Source of the DNA: Branchiostoma floridae
Taxonomy: Eukaryota > Chordata > Leptocardii > Amphioxiformes > Branchiostomatidae
NCBI RefSeq assembly: GCF_000003815.2
Contig: NC_049988.1
Span: 13,019,926-13,083,925 of the forward strand
DNA length: 64,000 nt
Direction: 5' to 3'
Position numbers and translations under genes: made by a program. The notes under the pieces are model-generated. The model was not told where the DNA came from. It searched no databases and saw nothing but the letters and a program-made list of their open reading frames with translations. Each line of letters begins with the position of its first letter. Positions within the stretch are counted from its first letter, which is position 1. Below are positions 5,109 through 56,800 of the stretch, piece after piece.

Positions 5109-8100
5109 ACTACGGATCTAAAGAATGGCAGACTATAAGGAAACGAGGAACCTGAGGTTCAAGTACCGCAGCCTGTTGATCGGGGTGGTGGCAAGCGGAG
5201 TCGTGCTGGCCATAGTGATCGGCCTCGCCGTCGGCTTGACAATACAACGATGCAACGAGCGCAAACGTAAGATAGCACTTTTAAGAAAGCATTCAATTGC
5301 TGTGAGATAAAACAGCAATCTTCAATGGGAATTCTGAGATTTGTTGCCTATTACAATAAAACATATTTTCTTTATCTTAAAATAGTTTCAATAGAATACT
5401 TTTCTTTTGAGATTACATCTCTTTTTAATACGCTACACATTAAAACTAATTCACCGATCGTTTTAGCATAAAGGGACGTTTAACGGTAACAAATTTGAGA
5501 AATGATTCGGCATCAAAATTACTATTCTGCCACTAAAATAACTACGTGTCTTATATCATTTACAATAACAGAGGAAATTGTCCACGTCGGTCTGCTGTTT
5601 CCGACCAACGACGAGTCAGCTGATGGTATGAGGGAAGCGGCGATGATGGCCGTGGATGACATCCGTGTCCATCGGGAGAAGGTACCGTCAGCTGCGGACA
5701 TCCAGGTCCACACCGGGGACTACGATGGATCTCCAGACGGGGCTCTGCAAACTTTCCGCCGCCTGTACAGCCAGCAGGACGTGCGTCTGTTCGTGGGTCC
5801 CGACACCAGCAGCCATGCGGTCCATGTGGCGGAGTGGGCGATGGTGAACGCACCGGACGCGGTCTTCATCTCTCCACGAGCAACATCCGAACGACTTGCC
5901 AACGCAACGAACGCCATACGCCTCAGCATGGGCGACCATGCTCTTGCTCTGGCCTTGTACCTCAAAATGCAAAGTAACAGCGTTTCCGTCGTCATCCCGG
6001 TACACATCGAGGACATTTACTCTACGGGCCTGGTGCAGAGGATTCGCGACCTGGCAGACGATATGATGGACGACATTGCAGTCACTACCAGTATCAGCTA
6101 CGCTCCGGGGACAATCACTAACAAGGAAGAAGCGGGGAGGCTGACTGAACAACTTCGCGACGCCCTCAGGGACAACCCAGATGCAGTCGTCCTCCTTGTG
6201 TCGTATTCAGAAGCCCAGGTTATCCTGGAAGCAGCCAATGGTGACAGCACCCTGTTGGGCCGCATGTGGTACACCGGGGACTCCTTGGCTCTCCGAGAGG
6301 ACATTCTGAGTTCTGATGACGCAAAGCAGTCTGCACAAATGGTAAGCCTGTACGGACTGGCCTACGCTGGGGAGGAGCTCCACAGCAAACGGAGGATGCG
6401 CAAGATGCAGAAGCTTGCTGATCGCCTGAAACGCTCGCCTCCAATGTTTGCTCCGCTGGCCTATGACGCCGTCAACCTGATCTACGACACGTGTCAGATA
6501 ATGCAAACCACCGATGCTCAGGTGGTTCTTGCACACCTTACCCGCGAGGCAGAATGGCAGAACGGACTGTCCGGCAGACTGGCGATCGACTCCCAGATGG
6601 GACGCGCGTTCGGAGATTTCCTGCACTCGTTCGTCGCTCCACAGATTCCAGACATCGGCAAGGTTACCGTCGCCATGACAGGGTCCTGGATTCTGGACGG
6701 ACTGTCGCAGGTATCTCACGACGACGGGTCTGACCAGCAAGGCGGCAGGAGAAGTGAACCGGAGGTAGCGGTATCTGACATGATGTCCATGTCCGCTGTG
6801 ATGTCCACTGCCATGTCGTCTGCCTCGATCTTTAACAGGTCTGATGTCATGGCATTGAAAGCAAAGGCTGGAAACGACTGTCACAACGCGAAGGTACTAT
6901 ACTTACATCTTTTTTTGCAAGGTTTAATAGTGTGCAAGCTGTCAGCCAGTAGTGGACTGCGGTAGATTTATCCAAAGAAATGTTACATGACACAATTTGA
7001 TGTTGTACTTTCTGACGTCTTTCACTTTACATCATCAATTGCCAAAGAGTCTCAGGGCTACTTCCGTGTGATTGATGCTATCCTGTTATGTTAATTTCCA
7101 GTTTTTCATCACTGCTACGGATCCAGCAACATACATGCAGGTAGAACACGACTTCACAGACGCCACATTCCCGGAGATGTTCATAGTTTCTACTGCCTAC
7201 GGCTACAGTCTACAGATGAGCTGTGACAAGCCGGAAGGGCCCGTGGTGTTGGACGTCCTCTGCCCGCCAAGCACCAACCCTAGAGACAACATGGCCTGTG
7301 TGGAAACCGTCACCTATCCCGTTACTGATCAGGTAACAGGACACCTTCAACTGTCAAAATATCCGCGTAATGATTCTTTCAAGAATAAGATCGACAGATA
7401 CATAGAGGCCAAGATCGTCGGAGGAGCGTCAGTGGGCCGCCAGCCTTCCAGCTCCTGACTGCAGAGACATGGAGTCTCTGCGGTTCAGGTAAATTCATGA
7501 GATAAATACATTGCGTTAAATACACAGATTAAATCTTGTTCTCTGTTGCCTTACTTTTTTTTCAGGGTGGCCGCCGCCGCCTACTGTTGTCTACAGGCAC
7601 CATCGGAGCTATTGGAGAATGTATCGGGGAGGTTGCCGGGTGTGCTGTTTGCTTCGGTACCCGGGTTCTGTTCGAGTCCAGCATATTGGGTAAGACAGAA
7701 ACCTCGATGACAATGAAGAGTTGCTGTCTAAATCATCAGTCGACTTAAACAAACATCATATTCCGATTGTGTACGACAATTTCACATGTCCATTGATTGC
7801 CTTTTTGTCCCAGTCTTTTTGATGGGGACTACTTTCTTGAGACCAGGAAACAATGGCCCAAAAGCAACTATTTGTACTTATGAAAAACAAACTTGTTCTA
7901 CACAGACAGTGCAGCTGCATGTGCGGAGCCCTGCGCATTCGGCATTGGAGGCACCTGTGGTAACGCCATTGGAGAGGGTATTGGTGACGCTGTAGCAGCT
8001 ACTGTTATCTGCACTGAACTTTTTGTCCAAGGTAAGGATGAAAAATGGTTTTCAATGGATCTCAACAATTTTTTGTTGTTGTATGAAACTAAGTTGGTTT

Positions 8101-9317
8101 TAGCTTCATCTTCTCGAAAAAATGAATTTTCATAAAAAGCAGTCAAATGCAATTCGTCTTCTTCTTTCTTCAAACTTAAAGCATGGTTTTTAAAGGTCTT
8201 AGGTTATTCTTCTTGATGATTGTACATGTGTTCTTTTACGTGCAGAGGTTTAGCGCCTGGGACCTCAGAAACAGTACTACGTGTTTAACGGTCATCATCT
8301 GAAATATTGAATGCAGCCCTAATGATACACTAAATGAAGTACAGTTCAGACAAGATAAGACGCAAAACATCGTCCTTGCCCCCACAGGCCACCTGGATGC
8401 GCAGACGTACCTGGCTGATGCCGCCTTTGGTCGCCAGCTGGCTGCCGAGTCCCCACACGTGATGGAAGGGTACCACACCCTGGCCAGCCCCATCGTCTGG
8501 CTCATGCAGCGGTCTGACACGGCTACAGACATCGTCAAGGTGAACCATTTTAGATTCTTATCTTTCTTACTTCTCCTTGAACATACAGTAAATTCTTATA
8601 AGCACCGGCTCCATGTATGTAGAACTGGTTGGCGCGTTGAAATTTGTGGAAGATTGTAGAAAATGAATCTGAACAGGTGCATATAGCATTAATGTATAAA
8701 GTTAATTTTCACAAATTGTCCTTATATGGCAACTGTATGCTGGTACCGGTGATACTGCTGATTGCAACAATAACAATAATTTATAAAGTCAATTGTAGTT
8801 CATAAAAAAATACAGTAAATTTACAGGTTCTGGTCTGATGAAAAATAAGTTTGCTGTTTAAGATCATGGCTCCTTTAGTGTAAGACAGGCAATACACCAT
8901 GTACTGTCCTCAGACATCTTAGCTGTCAGTCTTCTAACCACATCGATAAGACAGTACATCATCAATCATTAGACTTAGCCCTTTGTCCCGTTTCCTGCAC
9001 CTTCTGTCTAATGTATGTCAGCTAAATTTAAATTTAAGTGTTATACAGTTTCTCACAAGTGTTCCTCCGTATATTTCCAGACCTTTGCCCTACCCTGGGC
9101 CCAGCATATGAGCTACCTACAGGGCATGGCGGATGAAGGGGACGAGTTCGGGGCCGTTGTCATGGAGATAGGGATGACCCTGAGCGGTGCAGTGGGGAGG
9201 GTCACACAGGGGACCAGGGCTGTCATTGCGCTTGGTGATGTCATCCTTATCCCTGTCCTCATCGCCATGGTTACCATTGTGGCATGTCTTGCTATGTGCA
9301 ACTTTGGCATGAAATGA
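5109..9317 (+). CDS. Membrane-anchored periplasmic-binding-protein-like protein, copy 1 (777 aa, 7 coding exons)
   Basis: Coding exons: 5125-5266 (exon from 5109), 5572-6893, 7102-7332, 7566-7689, 7906-8031, 8388-8539, 9081-9317; all have GT/AG ends and matching phases and sum to 777 codons plus stop. Residues ~16-41 form one hydrophobic anchor after a short charged N-terminus. Residues ~48-380 look like a type-1 periplasmic binding fold of the LivJ/Leu-Ile-Val class (HVGLLFPTNDESADGMREAA; VGPDTSSHA; FISPRATSERL; Y-S-TGLVQRIRDLA). A Met/Ser-rich linker, a Cys-containing module, two Gly/Cys-rich exons (ECIGEVAGCAVCFG; CAEPCAFGIGGTCG), a segment with ADAAFG...YHTLASPIVWLM, and a C-terminal membrane segment (ILIPVLIAMVTIVACLAM) follow. 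No kinase, cyclase or 7TM part is present, unlike ANF or class C receptors. Ligand unknown; a sensor or solute-capturing surface protein is an inference. The ATG at 5125 is used because it follows the acceptor and is shared with copy 2. Confidence 0.85.
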
Positions 9318-13480: not shown

Positions 13481-13945
13481 GAATGACAGTTACAAACTTC
13501 AAAAGTATACTAATTTCTTAGTGTACAACTGTACAGCCTGCCTCTTAAGCTTAGGCTGTCAACGAGCTGTTACATGAGTGGAGGAGATTATCAACTAATA
13601 TGGTTTATGCAAATGAGGACCTTAGTTGCATAGTTGATGAGAAACACACATGATCCATCAGTCTTTAAGGTTAAGATCATTCAACGAAGGTGTGGGGTCA
13701 TGTAGCTCTATCGATATCGTTTTTCCTATGGTCTTCTGAATGGACTTTTAAAAGAAAATATTACACGATATTACACATCCTTTTCAGACAGCAGATCTAA
13801 AGAATGGATGATGATAAGGAACTGAAAACTCAGAAGCTGAGGCACCGCAGCCTGTTGATCGGGGTGGTGGCAAGCGGAGCCGTGCTGGCCATAGTGATCG
13901 GCCTCGCCGTCGGCCTGACAATACAACGATGCAACGAGTCTAATA

Positions 13946-14171
13946 AGGGGCCGGTTTACACGAGGCAAAAGAAAACGACTTTTCCTAAGAATGCCCTACG
14001 ACGTTCAAAGCGCGCGCGTGTCCTAGGACACTTTTTTGTCCGTGTAAAAATGAAAATGACGCGCTGCGGCGCGCCGCATTGTGGCACCTCCGGAGGTGGC
14101 GCCGCGCGTCGAACGTCGTAGGACATCTTTAGGACAACTCATTCTTTGCCTCGATAAGAGAAAGTTTAACG
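13946..14171. mobile_element. Inverted-repeat (MITE-like) element at the anchor-exon donor of copy 2
   Basis: The left arm CGAGGCAAA ... TCCTAA-AATG-CCTACGACGTTC and the inverted right arm GAACGTCGTAGGACAT ... TTTGCCTCG enclose a GC-rich centre with its own small hairpins. The right end runs into the N gap. Nothing like it is present in copy 1 at this place. Confidence 0.7.
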
Positions 14172-14321
14172 NNNNNNNNNNNNNNNNNNNNNNNNNNNNN
14201 NNNNNNNNNNNNNNNNNNNNNNNNNNNNNNNNNNNNNNNNNNNNNNNNNNNNNNNNNNNNNNNNNNNNNNNNNNNNNNNNNNNNNNNNNNNNNNNNNNNN
14301 NNNNNNNNNNNNNNNNNNNNN
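14172..14321. other. Assembly gap (150 N)
   Basis: Unknown bases. By comparison with copy 1 it should hold the intron end, the acceptor and about the first 30 codons of the binding-domain exon, plus the end of the inverted-repeat element. Confidence 0.95.
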
Positions 14322-17149
14322 TGACATCCGTGTCCATCGGGAGAAGGTGCCGTCAGCTGCGAACATCCAGGTCCACACCGGGGACTACGATGGATCTACC
14401 CACGGGGCTCTGCAAACTTTCCGCCGCCTGTACGACGAGCAGGGCGTGCGTCTGTTCGTGGGTCCCGACACCAGCAGCCATGCGGTCCATGTGGCGGAGT
14501 GGGCGATGGTGAACGCACCGGACGCGGTCTTCATTTCTCCACGAGCATCATCCGAACGACTGGCCAACGCCACGAACACCATACGACTCAGCATGGGCGA
14601 CCATGCTCTTGCTTTGGCTTTGTACCTGAAGATGCAAAGCGATAACGTGTCCGTCGTCATCCCGGTGCACATCGAGGACATCTACTCTACGGGCCTGGTG
14701 CAGAGGATTCGCGACCTGGCAGACGATAAGATGGACGACATTGCAGTCACTACCAGTATCAGCTACGCGCCGGGGACAATCACCAACAAGGAAGAGGCGC
14801 AGAGGCTGACTGAAGAACTTCGCAACGCTCTCAGGGACAACCCAAAGGCTGTCGTCCTACTTGTGTCGTATTCTGAAGCCAAGCACATCCTGGAAGCAGC
14901 TAACGGTGACAGCACTTTGTTGGGCCGTATGTGGTACACCGGGGACTCCTTGGCTCTCCGAGAGGACATTCTGAGTTCTGAAGACGCGAAGCAGTCTGCA
15001 CAAACGGTAAGCCTGTACGGACTGGCCTACGCCGGGGAGGAGCTCCACAGCAAACGGAGGATGCGCAAGATGCAGAAGCTTGCTGATCGCCTGAAACGCT
15101 CGCCTCCTGTGTTTGCTCCACTGGCTTATGACGCAGTCAACCTGATCTACGACACGTGTCAGGTAACCCGGACAACCGATGCTCAGGTGGTTCTTGCACA
15201 CCTTACTCGCGAGGCAGAATGGCAGAACGGACTGTCCGGCAGGCTGGCAATCGACTCCAAAGGTAGTCGCGCGTTCGGAGATTACCTTCACTCGTTCGTC
15301 GCTCCACAGATTCCAGACATCGGAAAGGTTACCGTCGCCATGACAGGGTCCTGGATTCTGGACGGACTGTCGCAGGTATCTCACATGGACGACGAGTCTG
15401 ACCAGGATGGCGGCGGTAGGCGTAGGAGGGAAGTAGCGTCCTCTGACATGATGTCATCTGTGGCGTCCACTGCCATGTCGTCTGCCTCAGTCTTCAACAA
15501 GTCTGATGTCATGGCACTGAAAGCACTGGCTGGAAACGACTGTCACAACTCGAAGGTAATGATAGACTGTTTGATTGTTTTTATACTTTCTGGATGAAAT
15601 AATTGTAAAAGCCAGTGGCGGAAAAACCCAAGACAATGTTCACATGTTACCGTTACAGGCTTTGGTAGTATGTTCTTGGTATCAGTTATCTTAACATCAT
15701 ATGATTGATGGTACCCTGTTGTAATTATTTTCCAGTTCTCCATCACTGCTACGGATCCAGCAACATACATGCAGGTGCAACATGACTTCACGGACGCCAC
15801 GTTCCCGGAGATGTTCATAGTTTCGACTGCCTATGGCTACAGCCTGCAAATGAGCTGTGACAAGCCGGAAGGGCCCGTGGTGTTGGACCTCCTCTGCCCG
15901 CCAAGCACCAACCCTAAAGACGACATGGCCTGTGTGCAAACCGTCACCCATCCTGTTACCGATCAGGTGTGGTTTCTGTCTTTGCAATCTTTTTTTTCAC
16001 ATTTGGTGTATGTTTTTGCAATGACATCGTCCATGGTCAAAATATTTATTATCATTACATGTCAGGTGGAGGATATGTGTTTAAAACATAGCAGATTACA
16101 ACATGTCATATTTTGTTTTTGCTTTGTTTTGCAGGGCGGCCGTCGCCGCCTACTAGTGTCCCCACGTGAAGCACAGGAAAGCCGTTCAGCACACTGTGTT
16201 GGCAACGTTCTTGGGTGTAGTCTTTGCTTCGGAGTCTTTTCGTTTTTCCTAGGTACCACAAAAACCTACTAGATGACAATTAGGAGTTGCTGTCTATATT
16301 ATCATGTGTATGATTGTTTTCATTGTTACATATATTATGATACTTACCATGTGACCTGTACTTAGCCCAGTGGGGCAAAAATGTGCAATAAAGGTCTTCA
16401 TTCACTTATATTATCATTCAACTATAACTGACGTGTATCTTGATTCTTGTCAAAGATGACATTTTCAGTTTTATAAAGAATGACTTTTCATTCATATAGC
16501 TTTTTTAATTGTTCAATGTTCCAAAACCATGAAACAGAACCCCAAAAAGCTACATGTACATTTGAAATACTTTTGTACTCAGGTCCGTTTGGAGCTTTCT
16601 GCGCTATACCTTGTGCAGCCGGTGTTGGAGGCATCTGTGGTTATGCTGCCGCACGTGGAAGTGGCAAGATCATCTGCACTGAACTTTTTGCCCAAGGAAA
16701 GCATTTATAGAAAATGATTTTTTTTCCTCATATCTACATGAAAAGCTTATCTCCTTATCTCCTAAAATTTCACTGATAACTTAATAAAGTACATAACCTT
16801 TTAATAAAGTAAATTACCTTTGATGGATCATCTCCAGTCATAAGGTGGTGCTCAGTTCACACATGATGACACAGAGTTTTGTATTTGCCCCCACAGGCCA
16901 CCTGGATGCGCATACGTACCTGGCTGATGCCGCCTTTGGTCGCCAGCTGGCTGCCGAGTCCCCACACGTGATGGAAGGGTACCACACCCTGGCCACCCCC
17001 ATCGTCTGGCTCATGCAGCGGTCTGACACAGCGACAGACATCGTCAAGGTGAAGCATTTTGGATTCTTATGTTTCTGCCTTCTCCTTAAACATACAGTAA
17101 ATTCTAACACGCACCGGCTGCATGTATGTACAACTGGTTGACACATTGA

Positions 17150-18020: not shown

Positions 18021-18308
18021 GTAACAACAACAATAATTTGTAAAGTCGATTGTAGTTATAAAAATACAGTAATTTTACAGGTTCTAGTCTGATGAAAAAT
18101 AAGTTTGCTGTTTAAGATCATGGCTCCTTTAGTGTGAACTGGCAATACATCCCGTACTGCCCTCATTGTCGAGAAAGACGAATGAACCTTTCAGATGAGA
18201 ATCAGACACCTTAGCTGTTAGTCTTCTATCCACATTAATAAGACAGTACATCGCCAATCATTAGAGTTTTGTCCCGTTTCTGCACCTTCTGTTGAATGTA
18301 TGGCAGCT

Positions 18309-18408
18309 NNNNNNNNNNNNNNNNNNNNNNNNNNNNNNNNNNNNNNNNNNNNNNNNNNNNNNNNNNNNNNNNNNNNNNNNNNNNNNNNNNNNNNNNNNNN
18401 NNNNNNNN
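18309..18408. other. Assembly gap (100 N, probably of unknown size)
   Basis: The left flank matches the start of the last intron segment of gene copy 1 (about 9000-9018) and the right flank is inside the mucin repeat of the minus-strand gene. The last exon of copy 2 and the 3' part of the mucin gene should both lie here, which 100 bp could not hold. Confidence 0.9.
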
Positions 18409-18690
18409 GTTGTTTCTATGGTTGTAGGGGGCGCTGTTGTAATGACGGTTGTGGGAGGGACTGTTGTGACGACGGTTGTAGGAGGCGCGGTCGTTTCTAT
18501 GGTTGTAGGAGGAACGGTCGTTATGACGGTTGTAGGGGGAACTGTTGTGACGACTGTTGTAGGGGGAGTTGTTGTTTTCACGGTTGTTAGAAGAGTTGTC
18601 TCTGTGGTTGTGGGAGGAACTGTTGTTTCTACCGTTGTTGGCGGAACGGTTGTTACGACAGTTGTTAGCGGAGTTGTTGTTTGAATAGTA
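18409..18690 (-). repeat. 27 bp coding minisatellite (mucin repeat)
   Basis: On the plus strand, units like GTTGTAGGGGGAACTGTTGTG repeat with a 27 bp period and encode PPTTVxTTV on the minus strand. It continues into the gap, which is a probable cause of the assembly break. Confidence 0.85.
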
Positions 18691-21600
18691 GTAGGTGGAT
18701 CCGTTGTCACTACTGTGGAGGGGAGAACTGTGGTTCTGGGCGTTGTAGGTGGAATCGTCGTATCGCCTGTAACTGTTGTCTCTAAAGTAGTTAGGAGAAC
18801 TGTTGTTGTCTCTACACTTGTAGGGATAACTGTAGTATCGTTTGCCACAGCTAACAGGTGCCTCAACAGGGGATGTTGTCTTGACAGAAGGGTTTGAAGC
18901 CGTTTTCGCGACACTACTGGGAAAAAAGGGTCTACAATAGTGGTAGGAACGAAAATCTAAATGTACATGATACTATATAATGTATTATTATGTCTATTGT
19001 GTACTAATAAATGGACTGCTCTCAGCAGTCCATATTATTGCTAGAATAGTCACTTGTGTCCACTTGTCAACATTGTTATCTATACCAAAGTCTTTTATTT
19101 TATGAATGTTTACTATGTATTCTGTATGTGCCATGTTGCAATTAGCACTCGGGCAAGAATTTGCAAGTAAACTTTCTTTACTATCGATATATCTACCGTA
19201 TATACCACAACGGGAATTCTTGGTACAACTAGCGGTGCGAGGATAAACTATACATGCACTAGCTGTAGGAATTCGTCCTGTAATAAGCGGTGCTTAAAAA
19301 TCTATTGTTTTACTCGGAAAAAACAGTGTTTTGCTTTTGAAGATATGTTTTAACTAGGAATAACTCACTACTATGAAAAAATTGTTTTACGAGGAAAAAC
19401 TATTGTTTACTTAACTTAAAGGTACTTCAAGAAGAAAGAAATAATTACATTTCTTAAAGTAAGAACTACACTGGTATTGGGATGAGTGGTGGGGTACATG
19501 GTGTATCGTGTCAGAAGAAGTAGCAGAATGTCGTTCATCAACTTGTAACATTAACTTTATAGAAGTGTTTAACTTGTTTAACGAGCAACATGATTCCGTC
19601 ATTACAGTCGTTAGAACGAACTCTTGGCTGAACAAGCTACAGAGGAGTTATTACAATGATAAAAAGGATGAAAAGATCGTCTCATGTCTGTTATAGTGAC
19701 AGACGTTGAAGTTCCTGCGGTAGGTTTGTCAACAGTGGTAAAAAGAGTCTATGGTACATGGTTCATAGTCGTTTTGAAACCGTGGTTTGCTATGTATACA
19801 TATAAATGTAAATGTTTTATAAGTAAACTTTACATAAAGTGCTGCCACTGACTTTCCATCAATATTGCTTTTCTACCATTGCAGTTGTTTTGTAAACAGT
19901 GTGTTCAAAGCTTAAAGGTACGTAGGGGCTACAACTAAGTCTGTACATATCAATCAATTAACAAAATAAACCATGTGTTAATTCGTAGCCAACTTACTGG
20001 TTGTTTTGTCTGGTGCCACCTTAGTCGTTAATGCTTCTGTTGTCTTGGTAGTTGTCAAGGGTGGTGTCGATGTCACTTCAGTCGTTGAATTTGCGATAGT
20101 CGTCTGGGTGGTTGTGACATTCGGGCAAGTTGAAGCTGTAAATAAAGGTGAATGTTTACACTTTGATTGGATTGGATTTGGTTTAATAGCCTGCATAATA
20201 ACATGCAGCCAAGCCTACCCGACTAGCCGTAGGCTATTACAAAGTAGCCCCTAAAACTGACGAATATATATATATATTTTTAAGCGGTTATAATGCACGT
20301 ATAACGGTGTAACGTTATATGTTAAAGTTTGTTCAAATTGTCCCGACCCCTTTCCATGTATATGGGTGGCACCCATCTCCGTTTCTATAGCCCTGGGCCA
20401 CACAGGCCACTACATCAGGGGTTAGATCACTAGTAGTGGGGCGTGTTCAACTCCCATAGTCTCATAAGTGCTGATTACCATACAGAGAAACCCGTAGAAA
20501 CCATGCATGTTACAAATATTTTGTCCAGTTGGTCCCCTGACCTTACGAACACTCAACCCCCAGGCTGCTGTACCGGCACACTTGTTATGTAACCACGATA
20601 CAAATCATTGACATTTGAATATCATTTTATTACACAGCAACAAGAAAACTTTACCTAACTTAAACGTATATGTCATGAACATTATGTCAGAATAAAGTTC
20701 ATTTATACCTCTCGGTGTAAGTCTCAATGTGTCCGCTTCGTTGTCTAGCAGAACGTTAAATTACACACATCAAGAGTGGTAATTACACATCTAGGTTTAG
20801 CCAGATGTTCATAATTCCATTTGTCACCTTAGTGCTCTGTGGGTCATGACCTTATAAGGTGGTATCTCACTGCACTTGGGGCACGTGTGCGGCACTGTGA
20901 GGTTCGAAAGATAACTCGACGAATTTCAGAATTTTCTTACGTTTTGTGTATTTTGCTGTCTCTTAGTCATACTTTTACGTATTACACAATATCTAAATTA
21001 TAAAATATGAACGAACCCTGCAGTGCCACACCAGTGCCCCAAGTGCAGTGAGATACCACCTTTATGGGGTATGCTTTCTTCTATACCATGTTTTCGTATT
21101 GTATGTCAGTTATGGTTCTCAATACAAAGGTCGCTAAAACAACTGAATGAGTTTAAATTTGCAAACATTCAGGTGTTTCAGAAAGCATCTGCTATATTTC
21201 ATCAGTAACTGGAAATAATCTGACGTCCAACAAGTATTGCAAGTAGCGGACGCTATCATAAGCGTCTGACCGTTTCCATTTGCTTGAGCTACTTTTGACT
21301 TGTAGATCTTATGATCTGTTTGCCTAACCTACATTTACGTGTCAACTCTTGTTGTCACCGGCTAGGTCAAAGTCTCAAAGAAGTAGCCTGGTATCAAGCC
21401 GTATTATAGATCCCGAGTCTCTTCTGTCCTCTTCGTATTTGCGAAGAGGACAGAAGAGACTCGGGAGCTATTAATACGGCTGTATACCAGGCTATCAAAG
21501 AAAAGTGTCAGAAACTTACGTTTTTGGCAGATGTACCGTACTTTGTTGTTACAGTCGTAGGGTGCCCAAACTGATCCGACATTTCTTCCAACGATGACAC

Positions 21601-21975
21601 AATCAGTCGCCTCGTCGTTCAGTACGGTCGGGTGAAACGGTCGGAAGGATCCCAGAGGTGACCCGTCATTCCACACGTACGTTCCCTCAACCGCTATATC
21701 ATCAAGTCCTATCCACGATCCTTGTAGATTGTAGTAATCTTCCTCTTGTAACAACACGAATTGTTCCTCGTTAATGCGAGTCAAAAGCGAAGCCCCTTCA
21801 GCCTCGCATGTGGCCCGAGCCACGTGGTATTGTGCCGCGCACCCGTTACAGTTCAGCTTTCTGATGCAGAGGCCTGGGATCCTGGTGGCGAGATACTCGG
21901 GATCCTCGCAGAAATGAACCGCTGCAGAACATGTTACAGGGGCTTCTGTCGTCTGCGCTGTTGTTGTGGGTGGTC
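18409..21975 (-). CDS. C-type lectin domain / threonine-rich mucin-like protein, partial
   Basis: Exons in transcript order: 21520-21975 (152 aa), 19998-20135 (46 aa), then from about 18850 down into the gap at 18408; all phase 1. The first exon carries a short TTT-Q-TTE linker and a C-type lectin-like domain with LCIRK, C-x-x-C-AAQYHVARATCEAEGASL, WIGLDD, YVWNDGSPLGSF and WAPYDCNNKVRYICQK. The usual EPN or QPD calcium/sugar motif is not visible, although WNDG is kept. The second exon is Thr-rich with one Cys and N-x-T sites; the third is a run of about 9-residue units of the form VPPTTVxTT, dense in O-glycosylation sites. A secreted or surface recognition protein is likely. The 5' part (signal peptide) was not found above 21975, and the 3' end is in the gap. 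Confidence 0.75.
20350..20480. mobile_element. SINE-like element copy in lectin gene intron/flank
   Basis: Shares GGTGGC(A/G)CCCATCTCCGTT, TAGCCCTGGGCCACAC and the CTACA-CAGGGG segment with 17840-18020, in the same orientation. More diverged than that copy. Confidence 0.6.
20858..21061. mobile_element. MITE family D, copy 1 (204 bp)
   Basis: Begins AGGTGGTATCTCACTGCACT and ends with the inverted complement. The terminal inverted repeats are about 45-50 bp with few mismatches. A second copy is at 26610-26844. No coding capacity. Confidence 0.85.
21384..21494. mobile_element. Foldback element, near-perfect hairpin (111 bp)
   Basis: Two ~50 bp arms (TAGCCTGGTAT ... CGAGTCTCTTCTGTCC) meet at a short loop CGTATTTGCG. 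The flanks TCAAAGAAG and TCAAAGAAA look like a 9 bp target duplication with one change. It lies just downstream of the donor of the lectin-domain exon, inside the intron. Confidence 0.85.
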
Positions 21976-22049
21976 CTGGTAGGCAAAAAAGAAGATTATA
22001 ATGAAACAATGATGGGCTGCATATTGGACACTGAGATACTCCGTAAATG

Positions 22050-22345
22050 TACAGATGCCAAGAGACTCGATGCTACAAACAGATTTTTATATATCTTTAG
22101 ATGTCACAACTTCCATAATGCAAAAATAGGCAAGTATATAAATAACTGATTTGTTATTTGAAAGAATACTGAAACTAAAGATTAGCCTACTCCGGATTGT
22201 AACACCATATCAAAGACGTTTTAGTTGTATTCACTATGATGTAAAGTTTATTCTATACCTCTATTTCGTACTTCTGTGTAATAGTTGTTGCCATACATTG
22301 GACAATGTACAATTGTCGTGCAATAAATACTTTCTTCATCACTCT
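22050..22345 (+). mobile_element. LINE 3' end, second copy
   Basis: Encodes RLDATNRF..RCHNFHNAKIGKYINN before a stop at 22147 and then a UTR ending GTGCAATAAATAC. The same tail is at 3950-4255. Confidence 0.7.
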
Positions 22346-53800: not shown

Positions 53801-56800
53801 TTTCACAGCCACCTGCCGCTAAGGTCCCAGGGGCTTTACATCTGTCACCTGACACCATGGGTGTTCTATGTCTTGTAGTAACCTTTGGGATAGTTAGTAC
53901 AACGAACTGAGCGCGCCTGGGACAATTCTGGACTATATCTAGGGGGATGTTTAGAATTGATATTCGCGATAGTTGCCCGAGTAAAGTTATAAGAGAAGTT
54001 CTTTTTCTGCATTCTACAACTGTTTTTTTTTTCACAAACATGTAAATACGCACAATAAGTGAGAAAGATGATTATGCTAAACAATCATAATAAAGCAGCT
54101 GTATAAGAGAGGTCAGAAGTTTTAAAGTTTATATGTTGGCCATCAAACGAATTTATCTTTCAGCGCAAATTGAGTATCGTATATGAAATGGAATACACGT
54201 TACATAAGAAAATTATCAGGCAAAGTGTTGCAATAAAACAGACGTGAACTAAAGAAAGGCATTAAGAAAGAATGAATATCGTAATCTAAACATATCATAA
54301 GCTTCACGAGCTCGAGATCTCATGAACTATGATATGAACATGATTGAAGACAGATCTTGGTAACTGTTCACCTTTGACATTTTCATGTTACTTAAACTGT
54401 ATAGGAAATGTTGCTGATCCCAGTGGATCAGTGAGACATCGCCTCCAGCTCTGACGTCATGACACACATTTAGCTTGTTTCCCAGCAATACGTGCGTTGG
54501 GTAAAGACGCCATGTGTTTATTATACACCAAACCATTAGAGATTATACAGAATCCTATTCTGTACTATACAAAAGCGTGTTACCTACATTTAAACTGGCG
54601 TACCAATATAATGAATAACGACATTAATCCAAGCTAGCCGTCAGAGGAATCTATCTTGATATTTCATCGCACACATATAATGCATGCTGGCACCACAGGG
54701 ATTAAATGACTGTCTGTGTNNNNNNNNNNNNNNNNNNNNNNNNNNNNNNNNNNNNNNNNNNNNNNNNNNNNNNNNNNNNNNNNNNNNNNNNNNNNNNNNN
54801 NNNNNNNNNNNNNNNNNNNCACACACACACACACACACATACACACACACGCACACACACAGTAACTCCACCTCTCATTCAAGTCAAAACGTTTTACACA
54901 TACCCGATAATCGTTGGAAAACTGCTCATCTCTTGGCAAGTCTTTGCCCTATAGGAAAATAGAGATTTACATGATTTTAGTCACAAACGATAAGGAAATT
55001 CTAATACATATAGTGACATTTTCTTTTAGGGGGGGGGCTGGGGGCTCAGGATTTCTTACAGAAAATGACGTCAAGAAATACCGCAAGTAGTTTGGGTCAA
55101 GACGTGTTAGGTGGCCCATAGTATCTTGTATCAAGTTCTACCTTACGTCAACAGGAAGCTCAAGTAGGTGCGGTCCGAACTTACACTTCGCAAATTGTAA
55201 AGCAAAGAGACTTCATTGTCTTTTCATACAATGAGACAGGAAATTGTTCTTAAACGGTAAAACCTCAGTTAATGAACGAGCTGCCCTAGCCTAACCTGAA
55301 GAGGGAAGTACAGGCTTATGATACATGACCTTTTGACCTTGAACAAAAGGTTTAGTTGTTGGCTATTACCGTGCGATCCAACTTTATGTTGTTATTACCT
55401 CAATGAGAAAGTGGTATAGTTTGGCTAACCACCTTGTTCGGCGGTGCATTTTATAATCTCGTTCTACCACCCGATTCCCTGCTGTACCCACCTGTACCGG
55501 CAGCCCCTCCACGTTCTGCTTGTATTGGTACAGCTGTCTCTTGAGGTTGAGCAGCCGGGTACGCTGGTCGGTGTGCTGTTCAAACTGTGGTAGACAGCTG
55601 TCGTACGGTGTCAAGAACAGCCGGTCGCCTGCGTTCACCCACCTGTTAATATATTACAGCATTGATGTTAATTTTAGTTCCAAAGATCTGGAGAGTTTTC
55701 ATTCGTACATCCATGACCTATTTAGAGTTTTTGTAAGTTTCTTAATACAATATAAAGTTAACTCAATCATGTCCATTTAGACATCACAAGCAATCATTCT
55801 CAACACCTGCCATCCTTGAGTGAATACAAAATATTTTTGTATACATGACTGTTTTCCTTGGCCACGTTACAATTAACAAGAAGTTCCTATGGCGTATGTA
55901 AAACAATGCCCGTACGACCAGTCTCACTAGTCTGTACCATACTGACTACGCTGGCTGATAATTGTGAGAATGATTTGCCAGGGGTACAGGAGAGCAAACA
56001 TCAACCTCACCATGGACTGACTTTCCTGGCCAATTTCCCGATTTTTCCCCCCGAATATAATTCTACTATCCCCGCACCCCCGTAGAAAGGCCTGGTGGAG
56101 GCTCGCCTGGTATCCAGCCTTATTATAGCTCCAGAGTCTCTTCTGTCCTAACCGTATTTGCGGAGAGGACAGAAGAGACTCGAGAGCTATAATAAGGCTG
56201 AATACAGGCTAGGTGAAGGTTACAGTCTCACCTCTGCACTGGGAAAACAAACTTAGTCGGTTCTCCGATGATGTCCACAGTGATGACCTCCACGAACCAG
56301 TCATCCACCTTCATGGAGTCATCCCTCCAGATCTCAATCTCCTTCACGTCGTTCGGCAGCCTGGCGTCACTGATCTTAAACGTGTCCAGACTGCCCGCTT
56401 CGAAGTCGTTCTTCCAGCGGCAGTCGAGCAGGACGTCCCGGGTGCGGTTGCCCTTGATGTCGTGCAGGGCGATGAAGACGTTCCCGTCGGTGCCCCCGCC
56501 TTTGACGTCGCCTGTCCGCACCGTGACGACGGCGTCAACCGTGGAGTTTTCACTGCTACAATTTGCTCCCATGTTCTTAAACAGCTGTAAAAGTTCTGCC
56601 TGTAAGGGAAAGAAAATCAAGCATGAATAACGTATGAATTTTAGCGTATATTATGTAATGTACAGAGTCAACCGTGGAGTTCTCGATGCTACACGCTGCT
56701 CCCATGTCCTTAAATCACTTACAAGTCCACCTGCCTGTGGACGAAGGAGACTTAAGCATGGATATCATAACATTTGAAACACAGCAATTCTGATACTTCG

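Follow-up and report, generated by a model that had tools for sequence, protein, structure and literature searches.

The Venus flytrap (VFT) domains known in animals form the front part of cyclases, kinases, channels and G protein-coupled receptors (GPCRs). The class C GPCRs (mGlu, CaSR and GABA-B) carry one as their ectodomain, as do the natriuretic peptide receptors (NPRs), which are not known to have an N-terminal anchor; among the latter the clearance receptor NPR-C has a short tail and no cyclase. The LivJ/LivK-type (HAAT) binding proteins are soluble or lipid-anchored and serve an ABC importer. Venus kinase receptors (VKRs) are membrane proteins with a VFT for which passages of PMC2680970 and PMC3703292 report amino-acid ligands, and a passage of the latter places none of them in chordate genomes. 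Here we describe a gene at positions 5125-9317 (+ strand) of a 64,000-nucleotide stretch of Branchiostoma floridae DNA, the window, on contig C10, which encodes a VFT without a recognisable effector. Tentatively, and at a little under an even chance, we favour the explanation that its family consists of membrane-tethered, amino-acid-binding flytraps with no effector of their own, acting as co-receptors or scavengers.

A sequence-only reading of the window had proposed a seven-exon gene at 5109..9317. The seven exons stand, all with GT-AG borders, and join into an open frame of 777 amino acids (aa); the start codon is the ATG at 5125, not 5109. The exons of this gene, copy 1 of the family, are as follows.

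5125..5266, + strand: exon 1, N-terminal signal anchor by hydropathy, aa 1-48; five occurrences in the genome, all on C10
5572..6893, + strand: exon 2, whole type-I periplasmic-binding/VFT domain and a Ser/Met-rich linker, aa 48-488
7102..7332, + strand: exon 3, Cys-containing module with no Pfam match and no known family; ratio of nonsynonymous to synonymous substitution rates (dN/dS) 0.14-0.31 in 10/10 pairs from five copies
7566..7689, + strand: exon 4, Gly/Cys-rich segment starting with basic GGRRRLL; diverged in three of the four other copies
7906..8031, + strand: exon 5, Gly/Ala/Cys-rich segment; diverged in three of the four other copies
8388..8539, + strand: exon 6, conserved module, 94-98% identity to the four other copies
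9081..9317, + strand: exon 7, C-terminal membrane span, then a short tail and the stop

Two strong membrane spans, aa 12-45 and aa 742-777 of the copy 1 protein, stand out in hydropathy, in agreement with the N-terminal anchor and final span described earlier, and the Cys/Gly-rich modules lie in between, with a weaker Gly/Cys-rich hydrophobic stretch at aa 571-633. The protein has two N-glycosylation sequons and 15 Cys; exon 2 encodes two of these, and only C355 falls within the flytrap fold.

Exon 2 belongs to the type-I periplasmic-binding/ANF_receptor superfamily. It passes the curated cut-offs, with 61.6 bits against ANF_receptor (cut-off 25.4) and 48.4 bits against Peripla_BP_6 (PF13458, cut-off 31.7), and has the two-lobe fold. 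The signatures VGPDTSSHA and ISPRATSERL are both located in it, and the claim of a full type-1 binding fold in one 1.3-kb exon is upheld. Nothing significant came from searching PDB sequences with the isolated domain, the only relatives among the matches being bacterial Leu/Ile/Val-binding proteins at E 0.56-0.68. NCBIfam returned no family for either of two exon-2 sequences, and a fold prediction from four near-identical family rows only was uninformative (pLDDT 41.7).

What follows the flytrap? In the full protein there is no Pfam match at E ≤ 1 beyond those of exon 2, and exons 3-7 give none. At this threshold the copy 1 protein has no cyclase, kinase, seven-transmembrane (7TM) or channel part. 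The seven-span domain that follows the VFT of class C GPCRs is not matched, a single span then a stop being found in four exon-7 copies; nor are the kinase-homology and cyclase domains of receptor guanylyl cyclases, the tyrosine kinase that stands after the single span of VKRs, or the bilobed ligand core and pore of ionotropic glutamate receptors. The stop after ..MK is conserved in copy 1 and in three more copies of exon 7, L010 being the exception, so a short tail without an effector is the most likely end of the protein. A distinct receptor-like family free of the usual animal partner modules had been proposed, and none of the partners listed in that proposal was found here. The list did not include the cyclase-less natriuretic clearance receptor. 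It also omitted the VKRs (PMC2680970, PMC3703292).

Searches of the 513-Mb genome, in which the best candidates were scored, reveal five copies of the family, every one on chromosome C10. Exon 2 occurs twice in the window, twice at C10 13.93-13.97 Mb and once at 3.91 Mb, the last with one TAG within it; a further, sixth match is a stop-containing remnant. Exons 3-7 match 24 places, all on C10, and no stalk or anchor exon was found elsewhere in the genome, outside the family, among the candidates scored. A lone exon 7 lies at 13.946 Mb (L057), and a 1740-aa frame around an exon-7 copy was rejected as a run of Ns. Exon order is largely preserved in the four other copies. One of them, overlooked by the sequence-only reading, shares the window with copy 1.

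13804..17048, + strand: second tandem copy, exons 1-6 recognisable, no exon 7 found

The exons of copy 2 lie at about 13804-13938, 14323-15555 (following an N gap), 15736-15966, 16135-16251, 16583-16696 and 16897-17048. Its exon 2 contains the N gap, which leaves it readable from residue 28 onwards only, exons 4 and 5 match weakly and no GT follows exon 5; it is possibly a broken or misassembled gene.

Purifying selection acts on exon 2, for which dN/dS is 0.26-0.39 in 6/6 pairs from four copies (the fifth, with the stop, was left out). Exon 1 is looser (0.10-1.0 over 10 pairs), exon 7 gives 0.35 in one pair and the copies of exon 6 are too alike for an estimate. Splice borders are kept in 5/5 cases each at the exon-2 donor, on both sides of exons 3 and 6 and at the exon-7 acceptor, a count made without the donors of exon 1 in copy 2 and in the L008 copy, the L008 acceptor of exon 2 and several borders of exons 4 and 5. 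Four further copies with exon order mostly kept, together with the low dN/dS of exons 2 and 3, show that the gene is not a chance open frame.

The identity of exons 4 and 5 to copy 1 is 42-57% in three of the four other copies and 98-100% in L008. Within the region of exons 4-6 (window 7566-8539) exons 4-5 are far more divergent among most copies than the flanking exons, and exon 6 displays almost no silent change between copies, as if exon-by-exon gene conversion or shifting constraint had operated across exons 4-6.

For comparison, LivJ-type queries were used to assemble a prokaryotic set: 80 loci were reduced by hand to 59 (the 21 left out are mainly from the Burkholderia group), of which 57 had an open frame, and five plasmid loci brought the set to 62 rows, one of them archaeal (L018). 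Alignment A3 combines 41 of the 57 with four family rows. The animal set comprises nine class C and eight NPR-type rows of this genome, one GABA-B receptor (GABA-B1) and one AMPA-type receptor (GluA2).

The main amino-acid-recognition residues of mGlu1 are Ser165, Thr188, Asp208, Tyr236 and Asp318, according to a passage of PMC2680970. Mapped onto exon 2 through a CaSR-like row (L022) and numbered over window 5574-6893, their equivalents are as follows.

5808..5810, + strand: S79, equivalent to mGlu1 Ser165 and CaSR S147 (CaSR position counted in the alignment); Ser or Thr in 98% of the 62 prokaryotic rows
5883..5885, + strand: T104, equivalent to mGlu1 Thr188 by alignment; Ser in one family row
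5934..5936, + strand: D121, equivalent to mGlu1 Asp208 by alignment
6018..6020, + strand: Y149, equivalent to mGlu1 Tyr236 by alignment
6279..6281, + strand: D236, equivalent to mGlu1 Asp318; the weakest assignment, gapped differently in A3 and in a model block of pLDDT 56

All five residue classes are present in 4/4 family rows and 57/62 prokaryotic rows, and in 1/9 class C and 0/8 NPR-type rows, several of which are fragments so that their counts run low. As a control, each residue was ranked against others of its kind. S79 is the Ser most matched in prokaryotic rows (0.98, against a median of 0.06 for 32 Ser), T104 is the best-matched Thr (0.94, median 0.06 for 20 Thr) and Y149 is second of 11 Tyr (0.97, behind Y297). 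A motif matched this far above the same-residue medians, at about 20% overall identity, points to a kept amino-acid pocket. Residues equivalent to the five of mGlu1 characterize a VFT that binds α-amino acids, and such binding is predicted for the family; with the class C motif intact in all four copies tested, the likely ligand is a small amino acid.

The LivJ/HAAT type comes nearest to the domain by sequence; among the animal VFTs tested (class C, natriuretic/cyclase, GABA-B and AMPA) there is no group into which it falls. Exon 2 as query scores up to 32.2 bits (median 14.7) against the 62 prokaryotic proteins, at best 5.5 against the nine class C rows and -1.7 against the eight partial NPR-type rows, and 2.5-2.9 against GABA-B1; of four runs with GluA2, three gave a negative score and the other reported none. 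When 17 animal VFT queries, several of them fragments, were run against the same prokaryotic rows their medians were -2.2 to 5.3 (best 22.0), and the likeness of exon 2 to prokaryotic proteins stands out among the animal VFTs compared. The LivJ-type likeness noticed earlier is thus supported pairwise, though it is remote, with identities of 14-23%. Some class C and NPR-type rows are as distant from each other (best 2.3 to 32.3 bits, by query), so the family is not alone in its isolation from animal VFTs. With GABA-B1 as query, a class C row scores 23.8 bits and a bacterium 22.3.

In profile-profile comparisons, run once and with some bacterial rows in wrong reading frames, 12 size-matched bacterial subsets score 55.9-125.0 against the family and 38.7-113.2 against class C; seven full-length class C rows score 27.7 against the family. 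Two trees (the first with 25/62 prokaryotic rows, the second with 23/62 and 4/8 NPR-type rows) place the family between prokaryotes and animals on a branch of 2.3-2.5 changes per site, nested in neither, with the prokaryotes on one side (support 94/92 and 92/93). Both trees are compatible with union of the family to either group, and a long branch can produce such a placement. Placement inside the known ANF-receptor clades, which the sequence-only reading had named as refuting its proposal, did not occur relative to the animal set. Peripla_BP_6 matches seven places in the genome, five of them this family; ANF_receptor matches 90, and two among those listed are this family. Cys density per 100 aa is 1.11 in prokaryotic rows, 0.46 in exon 2 and 1.09 in GABA-B1 and GluA2.

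With LivJ/LivK-type proteins the family shares the type-I fold over the whole domain, the five ligand positions and SPxAT, YSTGL and AYDAV-like motifs. It differs in being an animal gene with introns, in having stalk modules and two membrane spans by hydropathy, in lacking the LTG loop that many bacterial rows show (by eye) and in lying outside the prokaryotic sample in the trees. Class C GPCRs have the VFT ectodomain and amino-acid motif in common with it, but also the 7TM part that it lacks. VKRs likewise present a VFT on a membrane protein; the missing kinase, a matter of domain content, sets the family apart from them. The VFT is common to natriuretic peptide receptors, NPR-C included, though none of the eight NPR-type rows has the complete motif. 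The amino-terminal domains of ionotropic glutamate receptors, including plant GLRs, are accompanied by a ligand-binding core and channel absent here, and no pairwise score of exon 2 with GluA2 exceeds 0. In vent sea anemones Peripla_BP_6 is among the domains of shared orthologue groups, according to a passage of PMC11985324. No publication on the family was found in the PMC open-access literature, judged from titles and abstract starts, and its members may be present in databases as uncharacterised proteins.

In the explanation we favour, the protein would be bitopic, its N-terminus inside, followed along the chain by the signal anchor, the extracellular VFT, Cys/Gly-rich stalk modules, the second span and a tail only a few residues long. 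The flytrap would close on a free L-α-amino acid or close analogue. As the protein has no enzyme, channel or 7TM part, it may be a capture or co-receptor subunit, passing its closed state through the stalk to a partner membrane protein, or alternatively it may scavenge the ligand. Several points weigh against this explanation. D121 and D236, at 0.95 each, rank below four other Asp of 37 (median 0.23), and the model blocks that hold them have pLDDT values of about 66 and 56. The structure model was built from four family rows and 41 bacterial ones, a mixture that biases it towards a bacterial shape. The topology is read from hydropathy, the partner is something we purely infer, and the protein may instead be a transporter subunit or an adhesion protein.

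Where did the domain come from? Transfer from bacteria is possible and unproven, and an old animal VFT lineage without an effector fits at least as well. The sequence-only reading had suggested a possible bacterial origin; the trees nest the family in neither group and no close bacterial relative turned up. A GTDB scan with two 7-residue patterns, a weak test, matched 221 stretches, none a relative, and an IMG/VR scan with patterns of the same kind matched 201, again none a relative. A tblastn search of plasmids gave no significant match; the 20 records, at E 0.3-8, include five annotated as ABC or branched-chain substrate-binding, three unrelated proteins and 12 without a named feature. Profile searches found matches at E ≤ 1 in 3/8 genomes and, among about 398 sampled genomes, partial matches at E ≤ 1e-4 in only two (best 24.7 bits), with no close relative.

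Vertical descent from an old animal or eukaryotic VFT lineage, which lost its effector or never had one, like NPR-C, and which looks bacterial through keeping the ancestral pocket, has in our judgement an even chance of being correct. The tree position fits a stem on the animal side, ANF_receptor outscores Peripla_BP_6 for exon 2, other single-exon VFTs occur in this genome, and the GTDB, plasmid and 398-genome searches supplied no close relative. Of the animal receptors, GABA-B1 scores highest with the mixed profile A3 (115 bits). Prokaryotic profiles fit class C about as well as they fit the family, so bacterial likeness alone does not mean transfer. The low pairwise scores, at most 5.5 bits to the 17 class C and NPR-type rows and lower with GABA-B1 and GluA2, speak against such descent, although NPR-type L032 rows themselves reach only 2.3-3.0 bits with class C; so does the family's share of the Peripla_BP_6 places.

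An old bacterial transfer, in which the gene of a LivJ/HAAT solute-binding protein gained introns, anchors and stalk exons, we consider unlikely. The best matches of exon 2 are prokaryotic, with a median well above those of the animal queries, the bacterial subsets outscore class C against the family, and the AYDAV and SPxAT motifs are LivJ-like. Against this, identity is low, the family is not nested in the prokaryotic sample and that sample was itself collected with LivJ-type queries. GC content was rejected as a sign of origin, exon 2 (0.571) lying within the range of the other exons (0.528-0.638). A single large exon was rejected too, since this genome also encodes VFTs of class C receptors in one open exon each. 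A low Cys content does not count as bacterial in this comparison, prokaryotic rows being richer in Cys than exon 2, which slightly lowers the transfer reading. That a bacterial amino-acid-binding protein captured by an ancestor of this animal, with introns, two anchors and a new Cys/Gly-rich stalk, became an amino-acid sensor or trap independent of every known animal VFT receptor class is similarly doubtful.

A transposon-spread or decaying, functionless family is very improbable: copy 2 without exon 7, the in-frame TAG in exon 2 of L010, the lone exon 7, an exon-2 remnant with stops (L016, L056) and reverse-transcriptase-like frames (by eye) near the C10 13.95-13.96 Mb copies would suit it, but dN/dS for exons 2 and 3 is far under 1, the copy 1 frame is intact, splice sites and stop are kept and all copies are on one chromosome. 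The reverse-transcriptase-like frames beside those copies, L056 5223-6956 (+) and L057 5076-6194 (+), may explain the scattered lone family exons.

With a seemingly intact pocket for amino acids, two anchors and no effector, the family would either represent a novel type of co-receptor or scavenger for amino acids or exemplify the conversion of a bacterial binding protein into an animal surface protein; a single domain of about 380 residues would allow a direct test of either reading.

Elsewhere in the window there is a C-type lectin exon at 21404-22072 (-; Pfam Lectin_C, 43.4 bits) and, on the same strand nearby, a Thr/Pro/Val-rich repeat frame at 18261-18956 (-); the two are perhaps one mucin-like lectin gene. 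A PLAT/LH2 domain exon lies at 56228-56650 (-; 58.5 bits). On another contig, L024 (C11:11896000-11902500) holds an 890-aa open frame in which two VFT domains of class C type follow each other head to tail, with more VFT matches around it.
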